Positions 1,559 to 32,085 of a DNA stretch of 38,863 bases are shown here, in pieces. The stretch is taken from positions 1 to 38,863 of IMG/VR virus record IMGVR_UViG_3300031576_000169. One strand, given 5' to 3'. Source of the stretch: a virus. Numbering within the stretch: the stretch's first letter is position 1; each line of letters opens with the position of its first letter. The translations under genes and the position numbers were made by a program. Below the pieces are notes generated by a model that saw only the letters and a list, made by a program, of their open reading frames with translations, ran no database searches and was not told the origin of the DNA.

Positions 1559-2680
1559 CTAGGCACGCAGGCACCCGCTGAGGGCCGCCGCCACCGCCGC
1601 GGCCATCGGCGGCGGCACGGCGTTGCCGAGCCTCGCCCACTGCTCGGCGTAGCTGCCCTCGAGCTGGAAGTCATCCGGGAAGCCCATGAGCCGCCGCAGC
1701 TCCCAGATCTCGAAGCGGCGCCACGGAGATGGCATCACCTGCGCGAGGTTCCCGCGGCCCCACATCGCCGCCATCGTCGGCGCCGGCGACCCGGGGCTCG
1801 CCAGCCTGAGGTTGAAGTGCTTCTTGTGCCCTCTCCCAGGAGCCACGCGCAAGCTCTCGCGGGCCAGGAACGAGGTGACTGGCGGCGCGCATACGCTGAA
1901 ATGATCTGATCTGCTGGCGGTCATGGCGCTCATCTGGCTGCGTTTTCCGCGGGCCACTTTTTTGTGGATTCCATTCGAGTTGAACTTGGCCTCGGCCGCG
2001 CGCGGGAGGGCGTCGATCATGCGGGTCCTGCGGCGCCAGGGGCGCGGGAACTCCGGCGGCCGGCGCTCGGCGAGCCTGGTCCCGACCAGCCACAGGCGGC
2101 GCCTGCTCTGCGGCACCCCGAGCCAGGAGGCGTCCAGGATCTTGGCGCGCACCTCGTAGCCGGCGCGGCGCAGCCGGGCGCAGACCTCGCGCAGGAAGCC
2201 CCAGGCGGTGCCCGCGGCCAGCCCTGGGACGTTCTCGGCCATGAAGGAGCGCGGCTTCGCCTCCTCCACCAGGCGGCAGAACTCCAGGAACAGGTCGTCG
2301 CTGCGCTGCCGCGTGCCGTCAGAGTGCATCTTCTTCGCTCCCCAGCCCTTCTGCCGCTTGCCGGCCATGCTGAAGCTCTGGCACGGCGGCGAGGCGTCGA
2401 GCACGTCGACCCGGCCGCCGCACGCCTCCAGGATCTCCGCGCCGCGCACGGCCCTGACGTCGCGCGCGTCCGGCCGGCGGCCGAAGTTCAGCTCGTAGCA
2501 AGCCGCGGCGTTGGGGTGGAACTCGTTGGCGTACCGCACGTCCAGGCCAGCCCAGCGCAGGCCGAGGCTCGACCCGCCGCAGCCGCAGAACAGCGAGGCG
2601 GCGACCGGGCCGGCGCGCGGGGTGGCCAGGATCGCCGCCGTCAGGGGCACGACCGGCCAGCCCGGCCACGGGCCGCTCAC
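1559..2680 (-). CDS. C5-cytosine DNA methyltransferase
   Basis: Transfers a methyl group from S-adenosylmethionine to C5 of cytosine in DNA. The motifs appear in order in 373 residues: FCGCGGSSLG (motif I, about 31-40), SPPCQSFS with catalytic Cys100 (IV), ENV at 149 (VI), QSRRRLWLVG at 191 (VIII), RRLMGFPDDF (IX) and LGNAVPPPMA (X). All key residues are intact. The GTG at 2680 overlaps the ParB-domain gene stop as GTGA, the usual pattern here; a GTG at 2713 in the same frame would add 11 residues. No cognate restriction enzyme is adjacent, so it probably protects phage DNA or is an orphan regulator. Confidence 0.93.
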   Translation of the reverse strand: MSGPWPGWPVVPLTAAILATPRAGPVAASLFCGCGGSSLGLRWAGLDVRYANEFHPNAAACYELNFGRRPDARDVRAVRGAEILEACGGRVDVLDASPPCQSFSMAGKRQKGWGAKKMHSDGTRQRSDDLFLEFCRLVEEAKPRSFMAENVPGLAAGTAWGFLREVCARLRRAGYEVRAKILDASWLGVPQSRRRLWLVGTRLAERRPPEFPRPWRRRTRMIDALPRAAEAKFNSNGIHKKVARGKRSQMSAMTASRSDHFSVCAPPVTSFLARESLRVAPGRGHKKHFNLRLASPGSPAPTMAAMWGRGNLAQVMPSPWRRFEIWELRRLMGFPDDFQLEGSYAEQWARLGNAVPPPMAAAVAAALSGCLRA

Positions 2681-3228
2681 GGGCGGCTCAGCTCGTACCC
2701 GCACTTCGGGCACCTGATCTTCCCCTCCAGTTCGATCGGCACGTCAGGGAACTCGGCCGGGATCCTGGCTTCGCGCTCGGCGCGGGCGAGCAGCTCCTTG
2801 ACCTCGTCCTCAGAGAAGCCAGCCGCGTCCAGGGCCGCCTCCGCCGCCGACAGCTCCGCGACCACGGCGGCGAGCTGCGAGAGGTCCCACTCCCCGCCCA
2901 GCTTGTTCAGGGCCAGGTTCAGCAGCTTCTCCTCCGGCGGCCGCAGGCTCAGGATGACCGCCGGGACCCGCGCGCGGCCGAGGCGCGCCAGCACCTTGAC
3001 GCGCTGGTGGCCGCCGACGACCACGAGCGCCCCGGAGGCGCGGCGGTTGACGACGATCGGCTCGACCATGCGCCAGCGGCGGATCGACTTCTCGAGCTGG
3101 CCGAGCTGCTCCTCTGAGATGCGGCGGGGGTTGTACTCGCTCAGGCTGAGCGCGGCGAGCTTGACCTCGCGGACGGCGAGCGCTGGATCGCCGCGCGGTT
3201 TTGTATGGTTCTTCGCCGCGGCGCCCAC
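2677..3228 (-). CDS. ParB/Srx N-terminal-domain protein with C-terminal CxxC
   Basis: 183 residues. About 22-95 is a ParB/Srx-type domain: LSEYNPRRISEEQLGQLEKS, then PIVVN and VVVGGHQRVKVLARLG, where GGHQR is the box-II-like nucleotide-binding motif common in methylase-linked members. No helix-turn-helix follows, so it is not a full partition ParB. The C-terminus carries a single RCPKCG pair, half of a zinc ribbon. It is followed by the cytosine methyltransferase with a GTGA overlap, a pairing frequent in phages and prophages. The family is known for CTP binding or nuclease-like activities; the role here is open. GTG start at 3228. Confidence 0.85.
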   Translation of the reverse strand: MGAAAKNHTKPRGDPALAVREVKLAALSLSEYNPRRISEEQLGQLEKSIRRWRMVEPIVVNRRASGALVVVGGHQRVKVLARLGRARVPAVILSLRPPEEKLLNLALNKLGGEWDLSQLAAVVAELSAAEAALDAAGFSEDEVKELLARAEREARIPAEFPDVPIELEGKIRCPKCGYELSRP

Positions 3229-6375: not shown

Positions 6376-7239
6376 TCAGAAGTCGTACGGGTCCGGGTCC
6401 TGCCCGACCGGCTCGTCCTCCCACCGGCCCTCCCTCAGGAACTTGTTGAACGCCGGCACGTACTTCCCCTCTTCCTTAACCCAATCCTTCGACTTCAGGT
6501 GAGTCTCCAAACCAGCCCTAACGATGTCCAGCTTCGGCTCCAGCTTCTGCGATTTCCAGTATTGGCGCGCCCGGAGCTTCCCGGTGCGCCGGTGCTTCGG
6601 GTAGAGGTTCCAGACCTCGGAGAACCCGGGCGGGTCCGTGGGGTGGTTTCCTGCCCGGTCTTGCGGAGTCTTGGGTTGGATTTCCAGTTCGTGGACTTTC
6701 GACTGCGGTGTGCTAGCCCCTTGGGGGGGCGTGGGGGGGGAAGTAGTTAGATCTTTAGGGGACGGGCCGGGAAGGGGCCGGGAGTTCGATTCTTCCGAAG
6801 CAGAAGGCCAAACAGCTGCTTCGTGTTTGCTTGAAGCAGAAAGCAAGCAGCTGCTTCGTCTTGATTTCCCTGATCTGATGCCACCTTGCCTGCCTGCGTC
6901 AGATTTGATCCTGCGCTGACTGAGGATCGATTTGCGGCTCGGATTATACTTCAGGTAGTCGTGGATGGACCACCCACCAGCGCACTTCTCCCAGAGCTCT
7001 GCTCGGCGAAGCTCGTCTTCTATTGAAGCAGCTGCTTCGGGCCACAGAGTGTTCTCATCCGCATCGTTGAGCGTGAGGCCGAACGTGAGCCTCTCGATGG
7101 CTTCCTCCGGGACGAAGCCATCCGTCATATGCCTGGAACACCAGCAGAGGGCCCTGACGTGAAGTGTTACGGCGAATGGACTGAGCTTCAGAATCTTAGG
7201 ATGGTCATCAAAGGCATCGTCGATCCTGACCCAGCTCAT
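6376..7239 (-). CDS. replication initiator (phage replisome-organizer type)
   Basis: 287 residues. The N-terminal winged-helix-like region begins MSWVRIDDAFDDHPKILKL and contains CWCSRHMTDGFVPEEAIERL. A low-complexity Ser/Pro linker covers about 130-210. The C-terminal domain FSEVWNLYPKHRRTGKL, then KSKDWVKEEGKYVPAFNKFL, matches the end typical of phage replication proteins that recruit a host helicase. The start is ATG at 7239 with AGGAAAGAGG upstream. The linker is encoded by iteron-like repeats, as in lambda O. A structured leader and palindrome-bearing promoter lie upstream. Bootstraps DNA replication at an internal origin, by family analogy. Confidence 0.75.
   Translation of the reverse strand: MSWVRIDDAFDDHPKILKLSPFAVTLHVRALCWCSRHMTDGFVPEEAIERLTFGLTLNDADENTLWPEAAASIEDELRRAELWEKCAGGWSIHDYLKYNPSRKSILSQRRIKSDAGRQGGIRSGKSRRSSCLLSASSKHEAAVWPSASEESNSRPLPGPSPKDLTTSPPTPPQGASTPQSKVHELEIQPKTPQDRAGNHPTDPPGFSEVWNLYPKHRRTGKLRARQYWKSQKLEPKLDIVRAGLETHLKSKDWVKEEGKYVPAFNKFLREGRWEDEPVGQDPDPYDF
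6796..6858. repeat. iteron-like tandem inverted repeats in the initiator gene
   Basis: Two units about 36 bp apart, each GAAGCAGA followed by CAGCTGCTTCG: GAAGCAG at 6797 and 6833, CAGCTGCTTCG at 6813-6823 and 6848-6858. Each unit is an inverted repeat. A third CAGCTGCTTCG lies at 7029-7039 within a perfect palindrome. Candidate initiator binding sites and replication origin, by analogy with origins inside lambdoid initiator genes. Confidence 0.5.
7025..7038. repeat. perfect palindrome related to the iterons
   Basis: GAAGCAGCTGCTTC, a 14-base perfect palindrome combining both half-motifs of the repeats at 6797-6858. It lies within the same gene about 170 bp upstream in transcription order. 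Confidence 0.5.
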
Positions 7240-7272
7240 GGCTGGGCCTCTTTCCTGAGTTGTGGCGAGAGA

Positions 7273-7347
7273 TTCACGGGTGCCTCCAGGCTCAACCTTA
7301 CCCCGCCGATCCCGGCACCCGTGAAGGAGTCTGAGGACCGGCGGGGT
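7273..7347 (-). ncRNA. interlocked-stem (pseudoknot) leader of the initiator mRNA
   Basis: Two long stems interlock: TTCACGGGTGCC 7273-7284 pairs perfectly with GGCACCCGTGAA 7314-7325, and 7300-7312 pairs over 13 bp with 7335-7347 (one G-U in the minus transcript). One arm of each lies within the loop of the other, the topology of an H-type pseudoknot or of mutually exclusive switches. Connecting loops are 9, 1 and 15 nt. It ends 33 nt before the initiator ATG and begins about 10 nt after the proposed transcription start. Confidence 0.5.
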
Positions 7348-7363
7348 AGATGAGCTCTCCGGG

Positions 7364-7392
7364 ATCATATACAAACCCCGGGGATTTGTACA
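7364..7392 (-). promoter_or_regulatory. putative promoter with palindromic operator
   Basis: Minus strand: TGTACA (7392-7387), 17-bp spacer, TATGAT (7369-7364). The spacer and flanks form a near-perfect palindrome at 7370-7390: TACAAA and CCCC arms around GGGG and TTTGTA, with one extra base. A repressor bound there would cover the promoter. It drives the structured leader and the initiator gene. The -35 matches only 4 of 6 consensus bases. Confidence 0.4.
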
Positions 7393-7402
7393 TAGGAGAA
7401 TC

Positions 7403-7449
7403 GGCCCCGGCCAGATTGCCGGCGAGCGACCGGAGGCGCAGCCGGGGCC
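7403..7449 (-). terminator. GC-rich hairpin after the small membrane-protein gene
   Basis: GGCCCCGGC 7403-7411 pairs perfectly with GCCGGGGCC 7441-7449, with a small inner CCGG/CCGG stem. It lies 34 bases after the stop at 7484 and before the initiator promoter. No T-run follows on the minus strand, so intrinsic termination is uncertain. Confidence 0.35.
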
Positions 7450-7483
7450 AGTAAGAGGGCGCCTTTGGAGAAGAGTACCACAA

Positions 7484-7618
7484 TCAATCTTCCTCGCTCG
7501 GGTGAATGTAGACATCGTGGTCTCCAAGCCAACTGCGAATCCGCTCGGCCAATCTCCACAGGCCGAAGATCAGGAGAGCGGACGCGAGGCCGAGGAGGTA
7601 GCCAGAGGCGGCGGTCAC
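7484..7618 (-). CDS. small single-pass membrane protein
   Basis: 44 residues. A hydrophobic helix at about 3-22 (AASGYLLGLASALLIFGLW) is followed by a short charged tail (RLAERIRSWLGDHDVYIHPS). GTG at 7618 overlaps the preceding stop as GTGA. It is the last gene before the 7240-7483 control region. Inner-membrane location is likely; function unknown. Confidence 0.65.
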   Translation of the reverse strand: MTAASGYLLGLASALLIFGLWRLAERIRSWLGDHDVYIHPSEED

Positions 7619-8304
7619 GCTCGGTAGCTCCGGCTCACGCGGCTGACCGCCCTGACGCCCGGGATCCTGAGCGCCCCGCGCTGCGCCTGCGCCAGCTTGT
7701 TGAGGGTCGGCATGCACGGCTCCAGCAACCCGATCCACTCCGGGTGGCCAGCCACGTAGGACACCAGGGCTTGAAGATCGTGGACCTCGGCGGACCACAG
7801 TTCTCTCTCGCTCACCCCCTGGATTTCCGCGACGGCCGGGGCCACGCGCACCTGCGGGACCTCGACCGGGGCCGCCAGGATCGCCTCCGCCGCCTGGGCA
7901 TCTCCCGATTCTTCAGCATCGATCGCCGCCATGAGCTGCCGCTCCTCCTCTTCTATGCGAGCGCGCTCCCTGAGCTCGCGCTCCAACTCCTCGGCCTTGC
8001 GCCGCTCCTCGGCCTCGAAGTCTTGAGCCTTGCGGTCGTAGAGCTGGCGGGCCATCACCACCGGGCCCACCAAGCCGTCCCGCGCCGCCAGGATCTCCCT
8101 CTTCGCGGCGTCCGCCGCCTTGCGCGCGGGCTCGAAGTAGTCGGTGATCGAGCGCTCGCCGGAGCGCAGACGCTTGGCGCGCTCCAGCGCCTCGCCGTGC
8201 GAGGCCACCTCGCGGACCTCGTACAGCATCGCCTCACGCACGATGGGCGCGAGCTGCCCCACGATGTCAGGCGGGGACGGCCTAACGATTACGATGTCAT
8301 TCAT
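7615..8304 (-). CDS. coiled-coil protein of the recombination cluster (DUF1351-like)
   Basis: 229 residues. MNDIVIVRPSPPDIVGQLAP is followed by a long helical segment (about 30-150) with heptad-like Glu/Arg/Lys, for example QDFEAEERRKAEELEREL and RERARIEEEERQLMAAID. The C-terminal domain has HPEWIGLLEPCMPTLNKLAQ. Such proteins commonly lie next to RecT and a YqaJ or Cas4-like nuclease in phages; the role is not established. ATG at 8304 has GGAGGACAAC upstream. The HNH gene ends 8 bases into it. Confidence 0.7.
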   Translation of the reverse strand: MNDIVIVRPSPPDIVGQLAPIVREAMLYEVREVASHGEALERAKRLRSGERSITDYFEPARKAADAAKREILAARDGLVGPVVMARQLYDRKAQDFEAEERRKAEELERELRERARIEEEERQLMAAIDAEESGDAQAAEAILAAPVEVPQVRVAPAVAEIQGVSERELWSAEVHDLQALVSYVAGHPEWIGLLEPCMPTLNKLAQAQRGALRIPGVRAVSRVSRSYRA

Positions 8305-8761
8305 GTTGTCCTCCGATCGTTTTCCGAGAGTGCCAGCGCAAATCAGCCAGACTGATACCGCGAGTCCGCAGGTGCAGACGCGCATGTTCTGCCCTTGTCA
8401 TGACACGCAGATTGTCTGGTCGGTTGTCTCGCTGATTTCCGTTGACGTGATGAACGATGTCGCTCGGGCAGAGCGCCCGGCCAAGCATGCTCGCAGCTAT
8501 CACGCGATGCTCGTAAGCATAAACCCCGCCCGAGAGATTCGCCGAAGGATCTCCCTTCAAATAGATCCCGACCACGTCAGCTCGCTTTCCTCCTAGGTGA
8601 ACGCGCCCTCCTCGCCAATTAAAATTGTGTTCTCGGCTTCTTCCAAGAACAATGCAGCGATGAGAACAGAAGCGACCATGCCCGCGCGTAATCTCATGTG
8701 TCCTCACGCGAAATTGTTTTTGGCATCGTTCACATTGTTCGTTGGACATCGCTCGCGCCAT
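8297..8761 (-). CDS. HNH homing-type endonuclease
   Basis: 154 residues. An N-terminal zinc finger (CERC at 10-13, then CSHRC at 32-36) precedes an HNH nuclease core: YEHRVIAASMLGR at about 83-95, DIVHHVNGNQRDNRPDNL at 101-118 and EHARLH at about 125-130. Catalytic His and Asn residues are present. The start ATG at 8761 has GGAGGCG upstream. It overlaps the end of the RecB-like nuclease gene by 32 bases and the next gene by 8, and its GC content is visibly lower than its neighbours, as expected for a free-standing mobile endonuclease. Cuts DNA lacking the element, by family analogy. Confidence 0.88.
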   Translation of the reverse strand: MARAMSNEQCERCQKQFRVRTHEITRGHGRFCSHRCIVLGRSREHNFNWRGGRVHLGGKRADVVGIYLKGDPSANLSGGVYAYEHRVIAASMLGRALCPSDIVHHVNGNQRDNRPDNLRVMTRAEHARLHLRTRGISLADLRWHSRKTIGGQHE

Positions 8762-9275
8762 TGCTTCGCCTCCATGCGGTCAGCGTCAGCGCCGCCTTGA
8801 ATACTACCCAGTCATTCCGATCCCGGTGCTCGACGAGCTGATACCTGTCCTCGAACAGGTGCAGGCATGTTCTTGCCAGCGGCCGCTGGAACGTCCCGGC
8901 ATAGCCAGCCAATTGGACCTGGTGGAACGGAGCGCAGCCGCCCGTCTTCAGATCGAGGACGAGTTCCTTTCCAGCGATCTTCACCCGCCGGTCCAGCCGG
9001 CCAGCGTACTGGAGCGGCTCGTTCACCACCTCCTCTTCTATGGCCAGAATCTCCGGTCGCACTTCGTCCAAGAATCGCTGGTATTGCCGCACGCGTGGGA
9101 GAAGGACCGGATCGAGGCTGTCCCAATCCAGGTCGTGCTGGTCTAAGAACTGTAGCGCCAGGTGCAGCGCCGAGCCCTTGTCGCGAGCCTCGTCAGTGAA
9201 AAATGAAGTGTCCACCAGCCCCGCGTCTTTGAGGATTGTGGTAACTCTCGGCAGCTCAGAACGCGATGTCGTCAT
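8730..9275 (-). CDS. PD-(D/E)XK nuclease, RecB/Cas4-like
   Basis: 181 residues. Motifs in order: GSALHLAL with His38, EEEVVNEPLQYAGRLDRR with Asp95, LVLDLKTGG with Asp108 and Lys110, and HQVQLAGYAG with the Gln/Tyr of motif III. This is the RecB-family nuclease core used by phage exonucleases paired with RecT. Start ATG at 9275 has AGGGGAAG upstream and overlaps recT by 20 bases. Likely resects double-stranded ends to provide single strands for annealing. The last residues overlap the HNH gene and may have been altered by its insertion. Confidence 0.85.
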   Translation of the reverse strand: MTTSRSELPRVTTILKDAGLVDTSFFTDEARDKGSALHLALQFLDQHDLDWDSLDPVLLPRVRQYQRFLDEVRPEILAIEEEVVNEPLQYAGRLDRRVKIAGKELVLDLKTGGCAPFHQVQLAGYAGTFQRPLARTCLHLFEDRYQLVEHRDRNDWVVFKAALTLTAWRRSNGASDVQRTM

Positions 9276-10266
9276 CTTCCCCTGGCTCCCTCCCGAGGTG
9301 CAGCTCGATGCTCACGATCTGCCTGTACGTCTTCTTCCCGTCCTTCGACTGGACCTCCTGCCAGCCTATCTCTACTTCGCTCGAGCCGGCCTCGCGGGCG
9401 AAGGCCGCGAACTTGGCATCGAAGGTGCTGAACGCCTGCCCGTCCTGGCCGCGGATCGAGTAGAGCTTCCAGCCCTTGCCGGACTTCTCGTCGACCGCGG
9501 CCACGACCCCGACCCACGTGTTCGGTGCTTCCGCCTTCGGTTTCGGCTTCTGAGCCGCGGCTTCTCCCCCGCGTGCTGCTTTCGGCTCCTTGGCCTTGGC
9601 CTCTTGCTTGCCGATGAACTTCTCCACCTTCTCCGCGGCCGCCTCGCTCGCCCGCCGCGGCATGGAGACCAGTCTCGGTTCCCGCATCTGGTAATCCCCG
9701 ACCTCCTCGCGGAACTGGAGCCCCTTGAGCACGTCGGCGAAGGCGTCCCTCAGCGCCCAGGACCGCGCCCGCATCTGGAGCATCCGGCCGGGGTGCGTGG
9801 CCCACGGGGCCTGAGGGCCGCCGCGCCTCGTGAGCCCGGCTTTATCGGCCATCTCCATCGAGTAGGTGCGGGCAGTCGTGTTGGGCTGGTTCCTGCGCTT
9901 GACCTCGCACTTGCCTTCTTGCTCGGTCATCGCCTCCTGAGCATCGCGCTCCTCGATCCACTCCAGCAGCCCGCTCGCCTGGACTAGCCCGATGACCAGG
10001 TCGCCCCACATGCTCGGCCGCCCGTTGATCACGGCGATGTTCTGGAGCGCCTGCATGGGCGGGATGCCGATCTCGTTGCCCATCTGCACCGCGATGAGCA
10101 CGTCCTGCGGCTTGCCCCTGAACCCCGGCGGGCACAGCTCGCTCGCGGCGATCAGCTTCGAGAACTCCATCGCCTCGTCGAGCGTCCGTGGCTGGAGCGT
10201 GAAGACTTCCCGCCTCGCCGGCACTGACGCTTGATCGTCCTTCCGTTCTGTCCCCTGTTCGCTCAT
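9256..10266 (-). CDS. recT: RecT-like single-strand annealing protein
   Basis: 336 residues. The core MEFSKLIAASELCPPGF, then DVLIAVQMGNEIGIPPMQALQ and NIAVINGRPSMWGDLVIGLV, with ARTYSMEMADKAGL and MLQMRARSWALRDAFADVL, is diagnostic of the RecT/RedB family. A Lys/Ala-rich linker (about 205-250) leads to a C-terminal region resembling an OB-fold (TWVGVVAAVDEKSGKGWKLY). It anneals complementary single strands in recombination and partners with the nuclease gene overlapping its end. GAGGAGC precedes the ATG. Confidence 0.92.
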   Translation of the reverse strand: MSEQGTERKDDQASVPARREVFTLQPRTLDEAMEFSKLIAASELCPPGFRGKPQDVLIAVQMGNEIGIPPMQALQNIAVINGRPSMWGDLVIGLVQASGLLEWIEERDAQEAMTEQEGKCEVKRRNQPNTTARTYSMEMADKAGLTRRGGPQAPWATHPGRMLQMRARSWALRDAFADVLKGLQFREEVGDYQMREPRLVSMPRRASEAAAEKVEKFIGKQEAKAKEPKAARGGEAAAQKPKPKAEAPNTWVGVVAAVDEKSGKGWKLYSIRGQDGQAFSTFDAKFAAFAREAGSSEVEIGWQEVQSKDGKKTYRQIVSIELHLGREPGEDDDIAF

Positions 10267-32049: not shown

Positions 32050-32085
32050 GGGGCGGGGAGTCCCAGTCCGGTAACTCCCCGCCCC
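32050..32085 (-). terminator. strong hairpin after the capsid gene
   Basis: A perfect 12-bp stem, GGGGCGGGGAGT 32050-32061 with its complement at 32074-32085, loop 12 nt, 26 bases past the capsid stop. No T-run follows. It may protect the capsid mRNA 3' end or give partial attenuation, boosting capsid relative to distal genes. Confidence 0.5.

Follow-up and report, generated by a model that had tools for sequence, protein, structure and literature searches.

Two long stems, each with one arm in the loop of the other, lie wholly between a promoter-like site and the ribosome-binding site (RBS) of the replication initiator gene in virus record IMGVR_UViG_3300031576_000169. This interlocking goes far beyond chance, and the leader RNA therefore probably forms a knot or acts as a switch. 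We consider the chances about even that this structured 5′ leader acts in cis to control initiator synthesis. An earlier note on this DNA had proposed a structured leader between promoter and initiator RBS, and on this point the stems, the promoter-like site, the initiator profile match and the shuffles agree.

The window, meaning the whole analysed stretch of 38,863 nt, carries phage genes, the majority of them on the minus strand. They include genes for a portal protein with a MuF-like tail, a tape measure protein, RecT, exonucleases and the replication initiation protein. Upstream of the initiator gene lie RecT (9256–10266), an exonuclease (8730–9275), a short ORF that is HNH-like by eye (8297–8761), an exonuclease-family protein (ORF 7615–8385) and a short frame with its end at 7484. 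A comparable gene order, RecT–HNH–initiator, was found in Microbacterium phage Pickles13. The initiator (6376–7239, minus strand, 287 aa) matched phrog_2447 (E 4e-28), phrog_3926 and phrog_9474 over its N-terminal domain. Its structure prediction was of low confidence (mean pLDDT 56); the N-terminal part showed elements in a winged-helix-like order, and no significant match in the PDB was found. Elsewhere in the window, a ParB_N-domain protein adjoins a C-5 cytosine DNA methylase (2677–3228 and 1559–2713), and a perfect 12-bp inverted repeat with a 12 nt spacer, GGGGCGGGGAGT/ACTCCCCGCCCC, is located inside long open frames at 32050–32085.

The intergenic stretch of ~244 nt from 7484 to 7239 contains both the promoter-like site and the interlocked stems. 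The putative sigma-70-like promoter (TGTACA-17 nt-TATGAT; 7392–7364, minus strand) has 9/12 consensus matches. It was the only such site in 7100–7700, where shuffles averaged 0.1. The predicted transcript start is at ~7356–7358, nine or ten bases ahead of the first stem. A near-palindrome, ATGTACAAATCCCCGGGGTTTGTATAT (7367–7393; arms 85% complementary), is a candidate operator. The earlier note had described a putative promoter with a near-perfect palindromic spacer under operator control. The promoter-like site and the palindrome are both present and overlap, but the palindrome spans the −35 element and part of the −10 element as well as the spacer. No second copy of it was found within the window, so a repressor site here is possible but is not supported by repetition. 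Between the upstream genes and the promoter, a GC-rich 11 bp hairpin (GGCCCCGGC...GCCGGGGCC, 7403–7450) encloses an inner hairpin and is possibly a terminator lacking a U-tract.

In minus-strand RNA, the first stem (P2) joins a 5′ arm, UACCCCGCCGGUCC (7335–7348), to a 3′ arm, GGAUCGGCGGGGUA (7299–7312). These 14-nt arms of an inverted repeat are 93% complementary. Their sole imperfect position is a G.U pair in minus-strand RNA and an A.C mismatch on the plus strand, which makes P2 14 bp long as minus-strand RNA, or 15 bp with a closing U.G. The second stem (P3) has its 5′ arm, UUCACGGGUGCC (7314–7325, minus strand), inside the 22-nt apical loop of P2 and its 3′ arm, GGCACCCGUGAA, at 7273–7284 (minus strand), forming 12 perfect pairs out of 12. 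The order along the minus strand is thus P2 5′ arm, 9 nt, P3 5′ arm, 1 nt, P2 3′ arm, 14 nt and P3 3′ arm. As far as the arms are concerned, this is the topology of an H-type pseudoknot, and loops of 9, 1 and 14 nt suffice to span the stems. The core of the possible pseudoknot is 76 nt long and ends 33 nt upstream of the AUG. The two interlocked stems had been noted before as 12 and 13 bp; both repeats stand, the second being 14 bp with one G.U, and the structured region reaches further than described, its 5′ limit being ~7358 and its 3′ limit 7228. No Rfam family scored above the gathering threshold.

The claim that the stems are too exact for chance held up. None of 200 Markov-simulated genomes contained interlocked perfect stems of 10/10 bp or more. 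When the 119-nt leader was shuffled 4,000 times with dinucleotides preserved, none of the shuffles reached at least 12/12 and three reached at least 10/10. In a search of 412,536 bases of DNA from viruses and relatives (both strands, partly redundant), the leader's pair of at least 12/12 was the only one. One viral contig matched the exact two-arm pattern, in coding-like sequence with the partner arms absent, and a single 20-base match to the joined P3 and P2 arms had neither an initiator nor partner arms nearby; we attributed both to chance.

Nested folding of the 119-nt leader gave a minimum of −53.4 kcal/mol, with P2 lengthened by the 5′ end to ~20 bp with bulges. The extension pairs the 5′-terminal AGAGCUCAUC (7349–7358, minus strand) with 7288–7297, using exactly the predicted 5′ end of the transcript. 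Its 3′ strand falls in AGGUUGAGCCUGGA (7285–7298, minus strand), which would be loop 3 in the pseudoknot state. Because the extension consumes loop 3, the pseudoknot and the extended P2 should exclude one another. From stack energies of −33.0 (P2) and −27.1 (P3) plus an assumed penalty of 9.6 to 15 kcal/mol, we estimated the pseudoknot ourselves at −55.2 to −49.8 kcal/mol. The estimates for the two states overlap (−50 to −55 versus −53), so that energy does not separate them. The earlier suggestion of a pseudoknot or a two-state switch is thus compatible with the energies, which do not distinguish between its two states. When transcripts of increasing length were given nested folds, P2 was the first stem to form, and from 72 nt upward the minimum-energy folds were dominated by extended P2, leaving no free 5′ end. 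The nested fold alone was modestly better than shuffles (z −2.41). A 12-bp P3 exceeds one helical turn, and formation of the pseudoknot therefore needs real threading.

Further structure is predicted around the translation start. A hairpin of the form UCUCUC...AGAG (7248–7272, minus strand) would partly sequester the Shine-Dalgarno sequence AGGAAAGAGG, most bases of which are predicted to be paired with a probability of 0.8–0.99. A second hairpin, of 8 bp, would hold the start codon in its loop, GGCCCAGC-CAUGA-GCUGGGUC (7228–7248, minus strand), and also appeared in a fold of the region; hairpins of 8 bp or more occur at ~1% of ATG/GTG in the window. With the Shine-Dalgarno sequence and the AUG each in its own small predicted hairpin, translation should depend on binding or remodelling of the leader. 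Start-codon hairpins of 6 bp or more were found in 10 of 65 relatives (window included) versus 7% of all ATG/GTG in the window, an excess too weak for calling the hairpin conserved. A search with the hairpin pattern returned three matches, all in unrelated short frames. On the plus strand, the hairpin at 7228–7248 looks terminator-like. Reading the leader sequence, we saw no ORF for a leader peptide coupled to the initiator; a GUG frame of 6 codons, lacking a Shine-Dalgarno sequence, was all that appeared. An open frame also precedes the AUG; the nearest ATG in it falls upstream of the predicted transcript start. We rejected the idea that this frame extends the initiator at its N terminus, since the relatives align from MSWVRIDD and an RBS lies directly before it.

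Viral relatives of the initiator share 26–45% protein identity with it, apart from one 19-residue match. The phages collection yielded 277 records, mostly from actinobacteriophages and all below 60% identity; the scan of genome contigs gave only two relatives, in Nonomuraea, with 27–30% identity over half the protein. In the 300 nt upstream of the gene in 66 viral relatives, no interlocked pair was better than 11/9 bp, a level that matches shuffles. The initiator genes of Pickles13, Jinkies, DumpsterDude and Dardanus start 12–76 nt past the upstream gene, which leaves no room for a long leader in these four phages. Close relatives sought via RecT, the phrog_1362 protein and the portal protein were not found, nor was there DNA similarity of significance to phages and plasmids. 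From these sequence comparisons, the interlocked element looks lineage-specific and is absent from the more distant relatives examined. Within the initiator gene, we observed iteron-like repeats at 6797–6862 and 7013–7043, with near-copies of AGCAGCTGCTTCG at 6811, 6846 and 7027 (19-nt family D1) and GAAGCAGAAGGC/GAAGCAGAAAGC standing between them. The internal repeats (GAAGCAGCTGCTTCG) are a possible replication origin; in phage lambda, the origin is located inside gene O.

Other explanations of the arms differ in how much of the evidence they accommodate. The arms might act in DNA, as overlapping inverted repeats that bind a protein (repressor, initiator or origin sites) or form cruciforms, and have no role in RNA. 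Their position upstream of a replication initiator, adjoining the promoter-like site and the near-palindrome, fits this reading. We nevertheless consider it unlikely: arms of 12–14 bp separated by 22–29 bp do not resemble common operator half-sites, the sequences of the two repeats are different and neither recurs closely in the window, and the single imperfect pair suits RNA of the transcribed strand, where it is G.U. DNA-level roles are less likely also because the GAAGCAGCTGCTTCG repeats inside the initiator gene are better origin candidates. Similarly unlikely in our view is that only the long P2 hairpin matters, as a 5′-terminal structure shielding the mRNA from decay, with P3 incidental or transient. 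Such a role agrees with the dominance of extended P2 in folds of 72 nt and above, but a perfect P3 of 12 bp is in itself unusual: only 28 of the 4,000 leader shuffles contained any stem that long or longer.

An antisense switch as in the IncI-alpha, IncB and IncL/M plasmids, in which a plus-strand RNA would bind the apical loop and block a pseudoknot needed for initiator translation, appears very unlikely here. It shares with our leader a hairpin loop that can pair with a downstream segment ahead of a replication initiator. Against it, plus-strand promoter-like sites in 7140–7400 never exceeded 7/12 consensus matches (although promoters of the host may differ), the coupled leader-peptide ORF was not seen, and during lytic growth a phage has no obvious need for copy-number control. 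Least probable of all, we think, is that the arms are chance or remnant sequence without function. The element is missing in all relatives examined, as such sequence could be, but the shuffling probability for the leader is well below 1 in 1,000 and the pair of at least 12/12 is unique in the 412 kb searched.

Known leaders offer partial parallels to a structured leader controlling the initiator. In the IncI-alpha, IncB and IncL/M plasmids, antisense RNA binds the hairpin loop, a leader peptide is translated, and the stems are much shorter than here. The likeness lies in an initiator mRNA (IncI-alpha repZ, IncB and IncL/M repA; titles cited in PMC10724649) whose hairpin loop pairs with a downstream segment. 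In our leader, neither a convincing antisense promoter (7140–7400) nor a translated leader peptide was seen. Plasmid-type copy control is unsupported because no antisense promoter was seen, and the analogy to it drawn in the earlier note is weak. The phage T4 protein gp32 binds a pseudoknot in the leader of gene 32, which encodes it; this pseudoknot spans ~28 nt and is followed by an unstructured UUAAA-rich RBS region (PMC3014915, PMC535899). Like the gene 32 leaders of T4, T2 and RB69, ours precedes a phage replication gene and has a pseudoknot, here a potential one, upstream of the RBS. The core here, however, is larger (76 nt as against ~28 nt in T4, its stems being 14 and 12 bp), and the gene encodes an initiator rather than an SSB. 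UUAAA/UAAA repeats are absent from 7240–7272, which is predicted to be paired, unlike the gene 32 RBS. The leader is not a member of the T4 gene 32 type because it lacks this unstructured UUAAA-rich region. Its absence from relatives resembles that of the gene 32 pseudoknot from the T4-type phage RB49 (PMC3014915). Translation of tisB requires a pseudoknot at the 5′ end, and the tisB standby site shares with our leader a pseudoknot near the mRNA 5′ end and a sequestered RBS downstream (PMC7708055). The gene and host are different, and no single-stranded standby region was found in the leader here. By analogy, the best reading is that the leader may work in the manner of the T4 gene 32 leader or the IncI-alpha rep leader while belonging to neither group.

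For control in cis by the structured leader, we propose the following course. Transcription from the minus-strand promoter would begin at ~7357. The 14-bp P2 would form first, presenting the P3 5′ arm in its 22-nt apical loop, and once the P3 3′ arm emerges, the loop could pair with it to give an H-type pseudoknot (P2 14 bp, P3 12 bp). Alternatively, the 5′ end could zip P2 up to ~20 bp via the loop-3 sequence, excluding P3. The leader might be remodelled by the initiator itself, another phage RNA-binding protein, or ribosomal protein S1 or the 30S subunit. The complementary arms, where they lie, their improbability and the gene family are observations. We infer the transcription start, the choice between pseudoknot and extended hairpin, that between translational and stability control, and the regulator; the structure may instead influence how stable the mRNA is, and not its translation.

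More tentatively, the leader could be bistable, with a pseudoknot of more than one helical turn competing with the 5′-end-extended hairpin for the loop-3 strand and thereby setting initiator translation. We hold this doubtful but possible; it would extend such control beyond the T4 gene 32 group to an unrelated phage. If true, the two nearly isoenergetic states would provide a simple test system for long-pseudoknot switching. The leader would then also be a second, unrelated case of a leader pseudoknot, on a replication initiator, and would suggest that phages time genome replication by the folding of leader RNA.
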